Source of the DNA: Terriglobia bacterium
GTDB lineage: Bacteria > Acidobacteriota > Terriglobia > Acidiferrales > UBA7541
DNA: 33,064 nucleotides
NCBI GenBank assembly: GCA_020073705.1
Contig: JAIQES010000047.1
Location: 1 to 33,064 of the forward strand
Direction of reading: 5' to 3'
How positions within the stretch are numbered: the first letter of the stretch is position 1; the number at the start of each line of letters is the position of its first letter. A program made the translations under genes and the position numbers. Under the pieces are notes generated by a model. That model was given only the letters and a program-made list of their open reading frames with translations, was not told the DNA's origin and ran no database searches. This document shows positions 3,247 through 11,364 of the stretch, in pieces.

Positions 3247-4551
3247 TTAACTCGGTAGGAGGGCAAGAGAGTCCTCAATTACGTCGTACACGAAATTGAG
3301 CTGACCGGCCGTGATGACATAGGGCGGGAGGACATAGACGACATTGCCGAGAGGACGAAGAAGAACGCCACGATTCAGGAAAAACTCATACAGGCGCGGG
3401 CGCAGCGACGACAGGTATCCCGCGTCCGGAACTTTGAGTTCAATGGCGGAGATGGTGCCGATGTAACGAACGTCTGCTACACCGGGATGCGCCGCGAGTG
3501 CAGGCAGGCGCGCGGCATGCACCCTTTCGATCGCGGCAATGCGGTCGAAGACCGGCTCGGAGTCGAAAATCTGAAGATTGGCGTTGGCTGCGGCGCAGGC
3601 GATGGGATTGGCGGTGTAGGAATGTCCGTGGAAGAAGGCGCGTGAATGATCGGCTCCGGTGAAAGCATCGTGGACGCGATCGGTCGTGATCGTGGCGGCG
3701 AGCGAAAGAAATCCGCCGGTGAGGCCCTTGGCGACACACATCAAGTCTGGGACGACGCCGGCACGCTCGCAGGCAAACATCCGCCCGGTGCGTCCAAACC
3801 CGGTCAGGACTTCGTCGGCGATGAGCAAGACGTCGTGGGCGGCGGTGAGGCGGCGAATGCCAGAGAGAAACTCCTCGGGATGAACAATCATGCCGCCCGC
3901 GCCCTGAAGGAGCGGTTCGACGATGACGGCGGCAATCTCGTGGCCGCGTCCGGCAAGCAGGCGCTCGAGACTTTCCAGGCATTCGATAAGGCATGTGGCC
4001 CGTGTGAGGCCCACGGGACAATGGGCGCAATATGCGGAATGCGTTCGCAGGATTGGAACCCGCAGCGATTCGAATGCCGCGGTGAATGGGGAATCATCGC
4101 TGACAGACATGGCGCCGGCCGTGTCGCCGTGATAGGCGTTTTCGAGCGCGACAATGCGGCATTTCTCCGGGCGGCCGCGATTCCTCCAGAACTGTACCGC
4201 TAATTTGAGCGCCACTTCGACCGCTGTCGAGCCGTCGTCCGAGAAAAAAATATGTTGCAGCGGAGCGGGAACAATTTTCCCAAGGCGCGACGCGAGTTCT
4301 TCGGCGGGCTCATGCGAGAAGCCCGCGAACAGAACATGTTCGAGACGCGCGGCCTGCCCGGCAATGGCGGCTGCGATGGCGGGGTGCGCGTGTCCGTGCA
4401 GGTTAACCCACCAGGACGATATCGCGTCGAGAATCCGCCGGCCGTCGCGAGTTTCCAGGAACACGCCTTCCGCGCGTCGAATGTGGACAGGCGCAGGATC
4501 AGCGCCTTGGTGGGTGAACGGATGCCACAGATGCAGGTTGGGAGCGCCCAT
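3247..4551 (-). CDS. bioA: Adenosylmethionine--8-amino-7-oxononanoate aminotransferase
   Basis: BioA transfers an amino group from S-adenosylmethionine to KAPA to make DAPA, the third step of biotin ring assembly, in the cytosol with PLP. The 434-residue protein is full length. It opens with LWHPFTHQG, has SSWWVNLHGHAHP (BioA-typical WW near the substrate pocket), ENAYHGDT, the acidic IADEVLTGFGRTG segment and the PLP lysine in VAKGLTGG at residue 275, very close to Lys274 of the E. coli enzyme. YxHGHSYTANP is also typical of the SAM-using subfamily rather than the lysine-using BioK. It is the last gene of the minus-strand operon bioB-bioF-bioD-bioA, 3 bp after the bioD stop. Confidence 0.95.
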   Translation of the reverse strand: MGAPNLHLWHPFTHQGADPAPVHIRRAEGVFLETRDGRRILDAISSWWVNLHGHAHPAIAAAIAGQAARLEHVLFAGFSHEPAEELASRLGKIVPAPLQHIFFSDDGSTAVEVALKLAVQFWRNRGRPEKCRIVALENAYHGDTAGAMSVSDDSPFTAAFESLRVPILRTHSAYCAHCPVGLTRATCLIECLESLERLLAGRGHEIAAVIVEPLLQGAGGMIVHPEEFLSGIRRLTAAHDVLLIADEVLTGFGRTGRMFACERAGVVPDLMCVAKGLTGGFLSLAATITTDRVHDAFTGADHSRAFFHGHSYTANPIACAAANANLQIFDSEPVFDRIAAIERVHAARLPALAAHPGVADVRYIGTISAIELKVPDAGYLSSLRPRLYEFFLNRGVLLRPLGNVVYVLPPYVITAGQLNFVYDVIEDSLALLPS

Positions 4552-4554
4552 ATT

Positions 4555-5190
4555 CTAATGAAACTCAAACGCGGATCGATCGAAATTCTTCTCAAATACT
4601 TCGAGGAGCGCGGCGCGATGGATTCGGTCAAGAACAGGGATGTTGCCGACGACGCGCACATGGCCGTAATGCTCAATGGCGCGTCGATTCTCGGCATTTT
4701 CCGCGCCGATCAGGACGACACCCCGAACGCTCAGTTGCGCGTCACGCAGCGCGGCGAGTGTAAGGAGCGTGTGATTGATTGTGCCCAGCGCGGTGCGCGC
4801 AGCGACGACAATGGGAAGCTCGAGTTGGCTCATCAGGTCCAGCATGAGGTCGTGCTCGTTGAGCGGCGCCATTGCACCACCAGCGCCTTCGACAATCCAC
4901 GTCCGATTCGCCGGCGCCTCTGGAAATTCGAACGAATCGAGAGCAATCCGGACCCCCGCTTCGCGCGCCGCCAGATGCGGCGAAACGGGTGAATCGAAGC
5001 AGTACCGTTCCGGCAGGAGCTGTTCTTCAAGGGGCGCAGCCCACAATCGGACCGCGTTCCGGTCTGTGCCTTCGATGGCCCCGGTTTGCACGGGTTTCCA
5101 ATAAACGCCGTCGAGCGCGGCAACCAGGAGCGCGGAAAGAACCGTTTTTCCCACTCCGGTATCGGTGCCCGTGACGAAGAACCCGTTCAT
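4555..5190 (-). CDS. bioD: ATP-dependent dethiobiotin synthetase
   Basis: BioD closes the ureido ring of DAPA with CO2 and ATP to form dethiobiotin. The 211-residue length fits the family. The protein begins with the P-loop GTDTGVGKT (residues 8-16), followed by the substrate lysine region YWKPVQTG and the magnesium/ATP loop VEGAGGAMAPL. All of these are characteristic of BioD. Start ATG 5190 overlaps the TGA stop of bioF in an ATGA arrangement, so the two are translationally coupled; bioA follows after 3 bp. The loop NEHDLMLDLMSQLELPIVVAA matches the position of the usual xxDLxxxLxLPVILV stretch. Confidence 0.95.
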   Translation of the reverse strand: MNGFFVTGTDTGVGKTVLSALLVAALDGVYWKPVQTGAIEGTDRNAVRLWAAPLEEQLLPERYCFDSPVSPHLAAREAGVRIALDSFEFPEAPANRTWIVEGAGGAMAPLNEHDLMLDLMSQLELPIVVAARTALGTINHTLLTLAALRDAQLSVRGVVLIGAENAENRRAIEHYGHVRVVGNIPVLDRIHRAALLEVFEKNFDRSAFEFH

Positions 5191-6350
5191 CGCGACAAAG
5201 GAACCGTATGATCGGCCGCAATTTCGTCGCGGACTTCAACGACTGCACCGGCAAGATCGGCCAGGACGCGTTGCGAGAGCTTCGCCGTTAGCGACAAGCG
5301 CAGGCGAGCCGAACCGGGCGGAACGGTGGGCGGGCGGATCGCTCGAATGCCGTATCCGCGGGCCTGGAGACGTGAGGCAAAGGCAAGCGCCGTGTCGTTC
5401 GATCCAAGCACGATGGGCACGATGTGCGAGTTACTTCCCGCGGTATCGAAGCCGTTTCGTTCCAACTTGTCCCTCAGAAAGGCGCTAAGTCCGGAGAGAT
5501 GCGTGCGTTCGGTCTCTGCGTCCGCAGCCAGATGCATTCCGGCAGAGACCTGAGAAGCAAAGTATGGTGGCAGAGCCGTGTTGAAAATGAACGTGCGTGC
5601 GCGGTTGATCAAGAAACGGCGCAATGGTTCCGAACCGCAGACGAACGCGCCGGCGGCAGCGAGCGCCTTGCCGCAGGTGTGGACCGTGGCAAACACGCGG
5701 CCGGCAAGCCCGGCCTCCGCGACGCAACCGCTGCCGTCCGGTCCGCAGACGCCGGTGGCGTGGGCCTCATCAACGATGAGTTCGGCGTGATGGCGCGCAG
5801 CAAGCACGGCGAGATCACGCAGCGGCGCACGGTCGCCACCCATGCTGAAGACGCTTTCGACCACGATGAATCGCGCTCCGGAAATAGATTGGTTGCGGCG
5901 AAGTTCATCTTCGAGAGCGTTGAGATCAAGATGAGGAAAAATAATGCGCCGTCCCTTCGCCAGACGCATGCCATCAATGAGGCTGGCGTGATTAGCGCTG
6001 TCGGAAAAAACGATATCTTCAGGATGGACGATCGCGCTTAATAGGCCGATATTCGCCGCATACCCGGAAGTGAAATAGAGCGCGGCTTCAGCGCCGACCC
6101 AACAGGCGAAATCATTTTCGAGTGCAGTCCAGACTTCGTCGTGGCCCGACAACAGGCGCGAGCCGGTGGACGCGACGCGTGGCGCGGCATCCAAGGCTTC
6201 CCGGACCGTATGCTTCATGCGGGGATCGGAGGCGAGACCGAGGTAATCGCTCGAGCCGAGATCGATGTCGCGCGCCGCTTCCAGTTGACGCAGCTGGGAC
6301 CGTGATTCGAGATCGGCAAGCTCAGTGAGGATGCGTTGGTCCATCTTCAT
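5187..6350 (-). CDS. bioF: 8-amino-7-oxononanoate synthase
   Basis: BioF condenses pimeloyl-ACP (or CoA) with alanine to give KAPA, using PLP. With the start at ATG 6350 the protein is 387 residues, the normal size. An upstream in-frame extension to 6482 would run into bioB and adds an unrelated arginine-rich tail, so I rejected it. Visible marks are SSDYLGLASDP (residues 33-43), STGSRLLSGH (61-70), the SANHASLIDG loop, the PLP-binding DEAHATG (194-200), and the Schiff-base lysine in TCGKALAAAG (Lys228). ATG 6350 follows the bioB stop by 10 bp, and the gene ends overlapping bioD. The catalytic-lysine context has C in place of the more common L/F before GKA, a minor variation. Confidence 0.93.
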   Translation of the reverse strand: MKMDQRILTELADLESRSQLRQLEAARDIDLGSSDYLGLASDPRMKHTVREALDAAPRVASTGSRLLSGHDEVWTALENDFACWVGAEAALYFTSGYAANIGLLSAIVHPEDIVFSDSANHASLIDGMRLAKGRRIIFPHLDLNALEDELRRNQSISGARFIVVESVFSMGGDRAPLRDLAVLAARHHAELIVDEAHATGVCGPDGSGCVAEAGLAGRVFATVHTCGKALAAAGAFVCGSEPLRRFLINRARTFIFNTALPPYFASQVSAGMHLAADAETERTHLSGLSAFLRDKLERNGFDTAGSNSHIVPIVLGSNDTALAFASRLQARGYGIRAIRPPTVPPGSARLRLSLTAKLSQRVLADLAGAVVEVRDEIAADHTVPLSR

Positions 6351-7640: not shown

Positions 7641-7949
7641 CTAGCGGCGAGCCTCTTCGGTGTGATTCGTTTTGCTTGAGCCCGAATTCGAAGCCGGTGA
7701 CGTCGCTTCGTTTTCAGGCGCACTCCTCTTATGGCAGGAGTTTGCCCACCAGCGATTCTCGTATTGTGGCAGTTCACACATCTTCGTGCACTGCTTCCCG
7801 CTTTCGTGCTCGCAATGGCAATAGCACAGCGGCATATGTGGACCCGCAACCCGCGTTGTGGACTGGTTGGCCAGGACAGCCGCGGAAGCCACTCCTAGAA
7901 GAATTGCGATTCGAATGACCTGACGGATTCTGTGTTTTCGTGATGTCAC
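7641..7949 (-). CDS. Small secreted cysteine-rich protein, unknown function
   Basis: A 102-residue frame. It starts with a basic N-terminus and a hydrophobic core (IRIAILLGVASAAVLA, residues ~12-27) that looks like a signal peptide with an AxA-like cleavage site. The mature part carries a compact cluster: LCYCHCEHESGKQC, then TKMCELPQYENRWWANSCHK. That is six cysteines plus several histidines in ~35 residues, consistent with disulfides or metal binding in the periplasm. The tail is Ser/Glu/Asn-rich and disordered. The start is GTG 7949 with a poor ribosome site, and an overlapping frame from 7992 exists, so the exact start is uncertain. No family was identified with certainty. It lies between the bio operon and pilT with no obvious partner. 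Confidence 0.55.
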   Translation of the reverse strand: MTSRKHRIRQVIRIAILLGVASAAVLANQSTTRVAGPHMPLCYCHCEHESGKQCTKMCELPQYENRWWANSCHKRSAPENEATSPASNSGSSKTNHTEEARR

Positions 7950-8343: not shown

Positions 8344-9516
8344 CTAGGCGAAATCTGCAAGCTCCAATCGAAGATTGCCGGCGTTGGATGCATAGCCGAG
8401 CCCAACTTCGAGATCGATAACGCCGGCGCGGATCATGCGGTCCAGCTCGCTGTCGAAGTGCTGCATGCCTTCCGTGGTGCCATCCCGCATTGCATCCAAC
8501 AGTGTCTTGCCCTCGCCCTCTCCCTTTTCGACGTATTCTCGGGTTCGCATGGTAGACTTCAGGATTTCGATGACGGCCACACGGCCGGTGCCGTCCTTTC
8601 GAGGGATCAGGCGCTGCGAAATGATGTAGCGAAAGGCTTTTGAGACGCGGTTACGGATGGCCTGTTGATCGGCAAGAGGAAATACGCCGATGATGCGCTC
8701 GACGGTTTTTGAGGCATCGATCGTGTGCAGGGTGGAGAAGACAAGATGGCCGGTCTCTGCGGCCTCTAGCGCGATCTCGATGGTCTCTTTATCGCGCATT
8801 TCACCAACAAGGATCACCTTCGGCGCCTGCCGCAAAGCCGCCCGGAGCGCCAAAGCAAAGCTCGGCGTGTCACTGTGGAGTTCCCGCTGGTGGATCGTTG
8901 ACTTCTTATGGGCATGAAGAAATTCGATGGGGTCTTCAATCGTCAGGATGTGGTAGGCCTTTTCCTCGTTGATTTTGTTCAGGATCGCCGCGAGCGTCGA
9001 GGATTTTCCTGAGCCGGTCGGGCCGGTTACCAACACGATGCCATTGCGCAGGTCGGCGATTTCACCGAGGTGCGGCGGCAAATTGAGTGACGCGAGATCG
9101 GGGATCGTCTGGGGAATCACGCGCATCACGATCGCGTAGGTCCCCCGCTGTCGGAAGACGTTCACTCGAAAACGCGCGATTCCCGACAGGCTGTAGGACA
9201 AATCGGTCGCCCCCTCTTGTTCAAGCTTGCTGGTCACAATTTCATTTCGCCCGATCAGGTCGGTGGCGATGCGGCGAGTTGCTTCCGGCAAGAGTTTGCC
9301 TACACCGGCTATCTTCACCTCTTTCAACTGGCCATTGATTTCGACTTGTGGGGCCCGGCCGGGCGAAAAGATCAGGTCGCTCACCTGCTTCGAAACCTGC
9401 AACATCGTCGCAACAATCGCGGCAGTGGATACTTTAGGCGCAGATGGCGCGGTGGAGGAAGCATCCGCATTAGCACCAAGTGTTTGGGACGGCAGCGTGG
9501 AAACATCCGAATCCAT
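8344..9516 (-). CDS. pilT: Type IV pilus retraction ATPase, PilT/PilU-like
   Basis: A hexameric cytoplasmic ATPase that powers pilus retraction. After an Ala/Ser/Thr/Pro-rich extension (residues 1-30) the family domain runs to residue ~375. SDLIFSPGRAPQVEINGQL is the N-terminal PAS-like domain, Walker A is GPTGSGKSS (165-173), the Asp box is LTIEDPIEF, Walker B is VILVGEMRD (234-242), and the His box is GHLVFSTLHT. The C-terminal part has MRDGTTEGMQHFDSELDRM rather than the AIRNLIREGK motif of canonical PilT, which leans toward the PilU type; the distinction is not certain. At 390 residues it is slightly longer than PilT. It is adjacent to a PilZ protein and a broken pilB, so it belonged to a pilus cluster. 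Confidence 0.9.
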   Translation of the reverse strand: MDSDVSTLPSQTLGANADASSTAPSAPKVSTAAIVATMLQVSKQVSDLIFSPGRAPQVEINGQLKEVKIAGVGKLLPEATRRIATDLIGRNEIVTSKLEQEGATDLSYSLSGIARFRVNVFRQRGTYAIVMRVIPQTIPDLASLNLPPHLGEIADLRNGIVLVTGPTGSGKSSTLAAILNKINEEKAYHILTIEDPIEFLHAHKKSTIHQRELHSDTPSFALALRAALRQAPKVILVGEMRDKETIEIALEAAETGHLVFSTLHTIDASKTVERIIGVFPLADQQAIRNRVSKAFRYIISQRLIPRKDGTGRVAVIEILKSTMRTREYVEKGEGEGKTLLDAMRDGTTEGMQHFDSELDRMIRAGVIDLEVGLGYASNAGNLRLELADFA

Positions 9517-9594: not shown

Positions 9595-9957
9595 TTATTT
9601 TTTCTTGGTACGAGTCCGGATGGAGGCCCTCACTTCCCTTTCGATAGCGCGTGTAGCTTCAGGCCGAATGCCGACGAACTCAACCCCGATCCCTATGCCG
9701 GGAAGGCAATAGCGCACTTCACCACGAGTCTGGACTTCGACATTCGACCGCGTCAAGCGGAATCGGAGGTTGACGATTGCGCCTTCGGGAAAAAGTGACG
9801 AAGTGTTTACAAACATTCCGTGCAGGCTGATGTCGGACGGACGGAGCGGAATATTATCACTCCTGCCTTCATAGTTCATGCGAAGTTCGCGAAGTTGCGG
9901 AAAGCGCGGCTCGCGGCGCGCTGCCGTGAAGTCATTGCCGTTTCCGAGTTGTTTCAT
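9595..9957 (-). CDS. PilZ-domain c-di-GMP-binding protein
   Basis: A 120-residue single-domain protein. The c-di-GMP signature is present in order: RREPRFP near the N-terminus (the RxxxR switch, residues ~14-20) and DISLHGMF (the D/NxSxxG strand, residues ~42-49), followed by the beta-barrel segments GAIVNLRFRL and RYCLPGIGIGVEF. A basic tail (RTRTKKK) ends it. The start ATG 9957 overlaps the stop of the pilB C-terminal fragment (ATGA), so it was co-translated with the ATPase. Members of this family regulate motility or pilus function in response to c-di-GMP; that role here is inferred from the neighbours. Confidence 0.85.
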   Translation of the reverse strand: MKQLGNGNDFTAARREPRFPQLRELRMNYEGRSDNIPLRPSDISLHGMFVNTSSLFPEGAIVNLRFRLTRSNVEVQTRGEVRYCLPGIGIGVEFVGIRPEATRAIEREVRASIRTRTKKK

Positions 9958-10509
9958 GACGAAAGTACTCCATCTGAAATATTTACGTAGGATTCCGAAA
10001 GAGGTGCCGGCCCTCCGGTCTCACGCTTGGTCCCACAATACGGGCAGTAGTGGAATGCGGGAAGAAGCTCATGTCCACACTCTGTGCATTCGGCGGGCGC
10101 CAGGGTTTCGAAGGGGACAACGCGCAGGATTTCTTCCATAGTCGTGATTCCCAAGTGCAACTTCTCGATAGCGTCTTCCTGTAACCGCTTCATCCCGTTA
10201 CCGCGAGCAGCGTTCCGAATGAGATCGGGCTTGAAGCCGCCGCGCAGGATTGAGCGGATGGAGTCGTCGATTAAGAGCAATTCATAGATTCCGATGTGGC
10301 CCTTGTACCGTCGAGCAATCCAGGTACAGAGTGCGGGTAACCTCTTCGAGGGCACCAATCAAAGACGTCTTATCGGCCAAACCACGCTCGAGGATCAATT
10401 CACCCAGACGAATGACTTTGCCCTGCTGTTCCAGAAACAGTTGTTGAAGGTTCGCAGCAGATATCTTTCCCCGTTCTTGAAGAACCTCCCCAAGTCGCTT
10501 CCGTTTCAT
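9954..10509 (-). pseudogene. pilB: Internally deleted, frameshifted pilB/GspE-type assembly ATPase
   Basis: Two pieces of one gene lie in different frames. The 5' piece (ATG 10509 downwards) encodes MKRKRLGEVLQERGKISAAN and continues with QQGKVIRLGELILERGLADK to EVTRTLYLDCSTV, which is the N-terminal MshEN/T2SSE-N domain. The 3' piece (to TGA 9954) resumes at YKGHIGIYELLLIDDSIRS and continues to GNGMKRLQEDAIEKLHLGIT, the C-terminal end of GspE/PilB. The join lies near 10305-10316. The whole catalytic middle (Walker A, Asp box, Walker B) is missing. I estimate about 400 residues lost, judged from usual family length. The 3' piece also carries a CxxC...CxxC zinc ribbon (CTECGHELLPAFHYCPYCG) after the end of the ATPase fold. 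It cannot be an active ATPase as read. An assembly collapse cannot be excluded. Confidence 0.8.
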
Positions 10510-10910
10510 GCAGAGTGCCTCGATAAGATTTAACGCACGCTGGATTCCAAATCTCAATTCCGAGATCGAGCTAAACTCCGGAGAATCAATAGATTTTCAA
10601 AGTCCTCATGCAAATGGAAATATGAGTTGTTCCGAAACGGTATTCAAGTGCGCCTATTCGGAATTCGTGGCCACGAGAACAATTCTTATCTTAACGGCGA
10701 CCTCTGTGAAGGTGTTGCAAAATGGATCTTTCATGGTCCCTGATCGAGTGATTCCCGAGGCGGGAGTCGCTCCTCCCGAATCAGGATTCCAGGGCATTGC
10801 TGGAGACGCGTCATGCGTGACCATCCTTCAGAATATAAACAAAAATAAGGAAATTTTGATCGGAAAACAATCTTCTGGACTGGTTACTGGCGTGCATGGC
10901 CTACAAGCGT
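10510..10910. other. Non-coding region between pilB remnant and structured RNA candidate
   Basis: About 400 bp with AT-rich patches (10660-10730, 10830-10870) and no gene that I would support. It must hold the minus-strand promoter for the pil cluster and the plus-strand promoter for the RNA candidate, but no strong hexamer pair could be assigned. Confidence 0.35.
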
Positions 10911-11070
10911 AGACGCATTCCGATAGACGATCTTCACGAGTCTTTGAGCGAGGGGGAAGGGGCTTGCTCAAGGCCCTGTGCTGGTCGTCCCCACCTGCCT
11001 CTGAGAGGGAAGCTAGGATGGATGACCCTACGCCCCGGTCAAAAAAAGACTGGGAAACGGAATGCGCCTT
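10911..11070 (+). ncRNA. Candidate structured small RNA (class unresolved; possibly 6S-like)
   Basis: The ends pair: CGCATTCCG at 10914-10922 is the exact reverse complement of CGGAATGCG at 11058-11066, closing a ~150-nt domain. Inside are further stems: TTGAGCGAG/CTTGCTCAA (with one G-U pair, 10944-10972), GACGA (10926-10930) with TCGTC (10985-10989), CCTC-TGA-GAGG, and CCCGGTC-AAAAAAA-GACTGGG just before the closing arm. A strong intrinsic terminator follows directly. No coding frame explains this stretch. A long closed rod with CCCACCT in the 3' half recalls 6S RNA, but I could not reproduce the typical central bubble, so the class is left open. Confidence 0.5.
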
Positions 11071-11073
11071 TAG

Positions 11074-11107
11074 GGGCTCTCGTTCTCAAGCGAGAGCCCT
11101 CTCTTTT
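11074..11107 (+). terminator. Intrinsic terminator
   Basis: GGGCTCTCG (11074-11082), loop TTCTCAAG, CGAGAGCCC (11091-11099), then TCTCTTTTTT. A perfect 9-bp GC-rich stem followed by a T-run on the plus strand. There is no T-run on the other side, so it serves a plus-strand transcript. The only plus-strand candidate upstream is the structured RNA. Confidence 0.85.
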
Positions 11108-11118
11108 TTCTGCCGCTT

Positions 11119-11364
11119 CTAAATTTGTGACACGGTTGCCACAGGCTCCACGCGGCCAAGCACTGGAATCCGCGCTTGTCTGAGCACATGAGCGACTTCG
11201 GTTTCTCGTAGCCGCGAAGCGTCATATTCGAATGACAATCGGTTTGTTTTTTCGTGCACGCGAAACCGGCGCAATCCGTAGGTGTTGGCAAAGCTCCCTA
11301 GCGTTCGAAGCTGCTCGGGCCTGAGCGGCGACTGCAATTCGTACGTAATTTCCATAAGTGTCAT
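11119..11364 (-). CDS. Small HMA-like fold protein without metal-ligand cysteines
   Basis: An 81-residue protein, MTLMEITYELQSPLRPEQLR and so on, with a beta-alpha-beta-beta-alpha-beta rhythm (EITYEL / EQLRTLGSFANTY / RRFRVHEK / RLSFEYDASRL / REVAHVLRQARI) like a ferredoxin-like heavy-metal-associated domain but without the CxxC. It is divergent from csoR-copA with about 100 bp between, so a link to copper or metal handling is plausible but inferred. There are two start options: ATG 11364 or ATG 11355. A perfect minus-strand TATAAT at 11376-11371 lies so close that the first start would be leaderless; the second gives a very short leader. Confidence 0.65.
   Translation of the reverse strand: MTLMEITYELQSPLRPEQLRTLGSFANTYGLRRFRVHEKTNRLSFEYDASRLRETEVAHVLRQARIPVLGRVEPVATVSQI

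Follow-up and report, generated by a model that had tools for sequence, protein, structure and literature searches.

Probable recent decay of an accessory PilB-type ATPase gene in a Terriglobia genome

The window analysed here (33,064 nucleotides; contig C78 of the Terriglobia genome G000, which comprises 3.79 Mb in 78 contigs and is 97% complete) carries on its minus strand the two separated halves of a PilB-type ATPase gene (10509-9954). Based on comparison with an intact orthologue in a congener, we consider it very probable (about 0.86) that the gene of a dispensable accessory ATPase has recently become a pseudogene here, through an internal deletion of about 1.33 kb and thus by ordinary gene decay. 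On the same strand, the remnant is followed by genes for a PilZ-domain protein (9957-9595), a PilT/PilU-type ATPase (9516-8344) and a Cys-rich protein (7949-7641). Beyond the latter lie further minus-strand genes that we take, by eye from their sequences, to be BioB-, BioF-, BioD- and BioA-like. On the 5' side of the remnant a noncoding stretch is followed by a small ORF of 81 codons and by genes which, again by eye, presumably encode a CsoR-like regulator and a heavy-metal P-type ATPase.

Two gene halves and their join

The 5' part of the gene (10308..10509, minus strand) begins with an ATG at 10509 and translates as MKRKRLGEVLQERGK...YLDCSTV to about position 10308, which corresponds to the first 67-68 codons. 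It is 70% identical to residues 1-67 of the intact orthologue in the congener G003 (67 aa, E 2e-22). From there, translation runs out of frame through QGPHRNL to a stop at 10284-10282 (10282..10307), giving an ORF of 75 aa in total. The 3' part (9954..10307, minus strand; YKGHIGIYELL...CPYCG...LSS) lies in a different frame, extends from 10307 to the stop codon at 9956-9954 and represents the last 117 codons. It is 66% identical to residues 511-608 of the G003 orthologue (98 aa, E 6e-40), and the only start codon available to it is a TTG further upstream, at 10358. With Pfam, nothing was found in it besides T2SSE positions 308-370 (20.7 bits), i.e. the last 62 residues of that domain, and a C-terminal Cys4 zinc ribbon (Zn_Ribbon_1, 26.7 bits), so that the catalytic core is absent from the window copy. 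Given these E values and the synteny with G003, which is conserved on either side of the remnant, the resemblance of both halves to the orthologue is far beyond chance.

The join lies at 10306..10312 on the minus strand and, in G003 coordinates, about 1.33 kb is absent there (L027 ~4268-5598). An earlier note on this DNA had recognized an internal deletion with loss of the core and an out-of-frame C-terminus, which the comparison bears out; its estimate of a missing segment of ~1.2 kb was somewhat too low. The lost residues (~68-511 of 626) comprise the rest of the MshEN domain, the P-loop, Walker B, the His box and the core Cys cluster. Since G003 holds the intact orthologue in an identical gene order, the missing segment can be regarded as proven, and relative to that orthologue at the same locus the gene is disrupted, as is characteristic of a pseudogene. 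The join reads GACGGTACAAGGG in the window, and its parental sequences in G003 are AACGTCACC on the left and GGATACAAGG on the right. The stretch in common is at most ~5 nt long (GGTAC), and comparison of the window with both parents revealed no repeat of useful length. Thus the former suggestion of a deletion between similar, GTAC/TACAAGG-like sequences is not supported.

In both halves the differences from G003 fall predominantly on third codon positions (in the 5' part 13, 11 and 43 changes at positions 1, 2 and 3 over 68 codons), and no further stop occurs. This is consistent with a recent loss. However, the third-position bias is mainly a record of past constraint, as most of the divergence between the species predates the deletion.

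Identity of the intact gene

The orthologue in G003 has 626 codons (L027:4065-5945) and stands in the same gene order as in the window. It has the domain composition of a PilB-type ATPase, with MshEN (69.9 bits), T2SSE (433 bits) and a C-terminal zinc ribbon, and it shows a GPTGSGKS P-loop, a Walker B region (DPNVIMVGEIRD) and a His region (LHTNDS). In MshEN, T2SSE, P-loop, Walker B and His region it thus resembles PilB (TIGR02538) and the GspE/MshE group (Pfam T2SSE and MshEN). It differs from them in a TIGR02538 score below the equivalog cut-off (571 versus 675.65 bits), in a Cys4 ribbon that canonical PilB lacks, in a CxC at the first Cys pair, in the adjoining PilZ gene and in its patchy distribution, while the window copy in addition lacks the entire core. 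Because of the score below cut-off, the gene is a paralogue rather than PilB proper, here called PilB-ZnR. At E <= 1e-140, 14 of 95 genomes from the order contain such a paralogue; all 14 belong to a single family, and a PilZ gene usually adjoins it. Searches of the literature provided nothing useful on this PilB variant or on pilB pseudogenes in such a setting.

Judged from its domains, the gene would encode an accessory assembly ATPase, probably responsive to c-di-GMP, and not the main extension motor. This reading is based on the TIGR02538 score, the zinc ribbon, the patchy presence and the retention of PilT where this pilB is missing. The earlier note had implied that the gene is the PilB partner of the adjacent PilT, a premise at odds with the score, the ribbon and the restriction to so few genomes.

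Type IV pilus genes elsewhere in the genome

A canonical PilB is encoded on another contig of G000 (C38; 787 bits, TIGR02538 cut-off 676). The same contig carries genes for PilT, PilC, PilS/PilR-like proteins and two N-methyl pilin-like proteins, as well as for a second GspE-like ATPase together with PilM/PilN-like proteins; PilM and a secretin are encoded on contig C34. Judging from these predicted products, G000 has the main genes for type IV pili, as far as tested. The earlier note had left two ways out, an extension motor elsewhere or the loss of pili, and had proposed to look in the genome for a full pilB, pilC and pilM-Q. That search returned PilB, PilC, PilM and a secretin, in agreement with the first alternative; loss of pili was rejected, as PilB, PilT, PilC, PilM, pilin-like proteins and a secretin are all encoded.

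Recurrent loss in related species

The locus is assembled in five congeners: the gene is intact in one of them, cut at different places in two and absent from the other two. In G004 (L034; ~82-90% nucleotide identity to G003 at the locus) the same gene has suffered two deletions, one across the start region (L027 ~4010-4829) and a second one (5143-5765) that shifts the frame, while PilZ and PilT are intact. The second join shows no microhomology and the first one little. G001 and G002 have no pilB between flanks that are syntenic. Remains of pilZ are evident in G001 (64% identical, E 6e-16), broken by stops and frame changes, whereas G002 holds at most a marginal trace (E 0.005). The possibility that the pilB-pilZ pair was never present there was thus rejected for G001, the debris in G002 being only marginal.

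Outside the genus, G088 shows a CsoR-like ORF, the small ORF, a structured RNA (see the last section) and then a pilB of this type, as in the window, and in G063 the structured RNA is followed by a pilB of this type and then by pilZ. Because of these shared orders the locus looks older than the genus. A further decayed PilB-ZnR/PilZ pair occurs in G066 (C594; L140:2670-4586), where one MshEN motif is missing, the frame changes near codon 400 and PilB residue 585 runs into PilZ residue 46. Two other copies (G001:C10 and G063:C233) were not counted as broken, because of N bases at or close to the point where the frame changes. One genome per species was compared, and the deletion in the window could therefore be a variant within its population.

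In five cases the PilB-ZnR gene is cut by a contig end inside the ATPase gene (G001:C436, G088:C181, G052:C148, G079:C59 and G087:C13), which suggests near-identical copies or a core that is hard to assemble in these genomes. Another observation concerns a 366-aa ORF on contig C47 of G000 (36693-37793; L035:4694-5794). It has a coiled middle and ends in TTLEEILR and the zinc-ribbon tail of a PilB-ZnR paralogue; over 179 bp its nucleotide sequence is 73.7% identical to G004:C42. It looks as though such a tail had become joined to another gene.

The retained pilZ and pilT genes

As the earlier note had stated, the retraction-type ATPase and the PilZ gene are intact and the latter is ATGA-coupled to the remnant (PilZ ATG 9957-9955, remnant TGA 9956-9954). 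The PilZ gene (9595..9957, minus strand; Pfam PilZ 44.7 bits, cut-off 22.5) has an upstream GGAG of its own that resembles a ribosome-binding site. Its product belongs to the PilZ family and has both c-di-GMP motifs, RxxxR (RREPR) and DxSxxG (DISLHG). The gene is open in G000 as well as in G004, and between G003 and G004 dN is 0.047 at a dS of 0.434 (Nei-Gojobori). This points to constraint on PilZ, although the pilB of G004 is broken.

The PilT/PilU-family ATPase (8344..9516, minus strand; TIGR01420 395 bits, cut-off 319) is intact in all five congeners (G000-G004) and was found in 54 of 89 genomes of the family (E <= 1e-150). Outside the genus, 38 loci were inspected, and none has a pilB of this type upstream of it; most of the family retains this PilT without such a pilB. 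Taken as a whole, one genus has repeatedly lost an accessory, zinc-ribbon-tailed pilus ATPase but has kept the PilT-type ATPase next to it throughout, and PilZ in some species. That both were kept while the motor was lost argues for roles of PilT and PilZ that are independent of it.

The Xanthomonas PilB-PilZ-FimX complex (PMC8389850) offers a parallel, since the position of the PilB-type ATPase gene next to that of a PilZ protein may point to a working pair; in distinction, the PilZ described here has both c-di-GMP motifs, RxxxR and DxSxxG.

Explanation of the disrupted gene

We propose the following sequence of events. In its ancestral form the gene would have specified a T2SSE core between an MshEN N-domain and an additional zinc ribbon at the C-terminus, with a PilZ gene normally downstream of it. 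One internal deletion then removed most of the coding region and shifted the frame. With canonical type IV pilus motors remaining elsewhere, the accessory motor was presumably dispensable, and congeners have lost the same gene through different deletions. PilZ, still open and with its own GGAG, probably serves another partner. The deletion, the frame shift, the different breakpoints in congeners and the intact pilus genes elsewhere can be read directly from the sequences; loss of function, its recent date, dispensability and the other partner of PilZ are inferred from them. Deletion pseudogenes of redundant ATPase paralogues are alike in having an internal deletion, a frame shift, intact neighbours and redundancy elsewhere. 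Different from the ordinary case, one gene has here been lost in different ways in several congeners and is caught at different stages.

Alternatively, the remnant might still be in use: the 75-aa N part could act as a free MshEN_N peptide that binds c-di-GMP, the 3' part as a separate zinc-ribbon protein together with PilZ, or both. The N part indeed retains both 24-residue, RLG-type motifs known from the MshEN c-di-GMP receptor domain, with the 5-residue spacer and all 53 positions of the motif pair, and in Vibrio cholerae MshEN_N on its own (residues 1-62) binds c-di-GMP (KD 0.35 uM; PMC5013675). In addition, the zinc-ribbon tail survives in G004 and recurs on the other ORF of contig C47. 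However, the remnant scores only 30.8 bits against the c-di-GMP motif model (NF053729, residues 5-56; cut-off 38), and its second motif ends in Val instead of Gln, as in the PilB-ZnR group in general. Furthermore, G004 has lost the N part with the start and G001 and G002 have lost pilB, so that no piece is common across the genus, and the 3' part could start only at the upstream TTG. We therefore regard continued use as very unlikely, and even less likely is its most elaborate form, a working relic in two parts whose free peptide and zinc-ribbon/PilZ unit would modulate the canonical PilB or the adjacent PilT.

A collapse or misjoin in the assembly, with the core still present in the cell, is likewise highly improbable. 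An assembly in 78 contigs might give rise to such an error, and copies of the paralogue in other genomes do end at contig borders inside the core, which marks it as a difficult region where a genome has several copies. However, G000 contains no second core of the paralogue, the best other match being the canonical PilB with 41% identity, and the few nucleotides in common at the join are too short for a collapse of k-mers or overlaps. The same gene is moreover broken or absent in three other congeners, which makes a real loss the expected result. Programmed frameshifting, or a protein that was always short, would fit two open and well conserved halves but is extremely unlikely, as even a perfect frame jump would yield a product without P-loop or Walker B, and the core is complete in the orthologue as well as in every full-length relative.

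A structured RNA next to the remnant

As a pseudogene the remnant is ordinary, and the adjoining uncatalogued RNA gene is probably of greater interest. The RNA lies on the plus strand between the remnant and the small ORF (10912-11068), folds into a closing stem with three arms and is followed by an intrinsic terminator (~11073-11109, plus strand). It matched no family of Rfam 15, apart from one match below threshold. Five congeners share it with a mean column identity of 93%. A covariance model gave matches in 73 of the family's 89 genomes, with all 13 genera represented and mostly a single copy per genome. Of 260 genomes sampled elsewhere in the class, under stricter filters, none gave a match. 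Covariation is strong: in a set of 20 sequences both partners vary in 22 of 50 pairs and 95.2% of cells pair, in an alignment that was fitted to the model and therefore leans towards it; when the partners are slid against each other, pairing falls to 32-41%.

Upstream of the RNA lies a promoter-like GG-N10-GC element (10882-10895, plus strand) of the sigma-54-like -24/-12 type. Each of the 20 members checked has it ~27-31 nt upstream of the RNA, compared with a mean of 3.0 and at most 8 of 20 in shuffled sequences, and sigma-54 is encoded in G000. In other genera the RNA has as neighbours the small ORF and the genes for the P-type ATPase and the Cys-rich protein. Since these are not pilus genes, the RNA is not part of the pilB system. 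The Cys-rich protein (7641-7949, minus strand; CYCHCE...MCELPQYENRWW) and the 81-aa protein of the small ORF (11119-11364, minus strand) were assigned to no family; both are conserved across genera near the structured RNA and the P-type ATPase.
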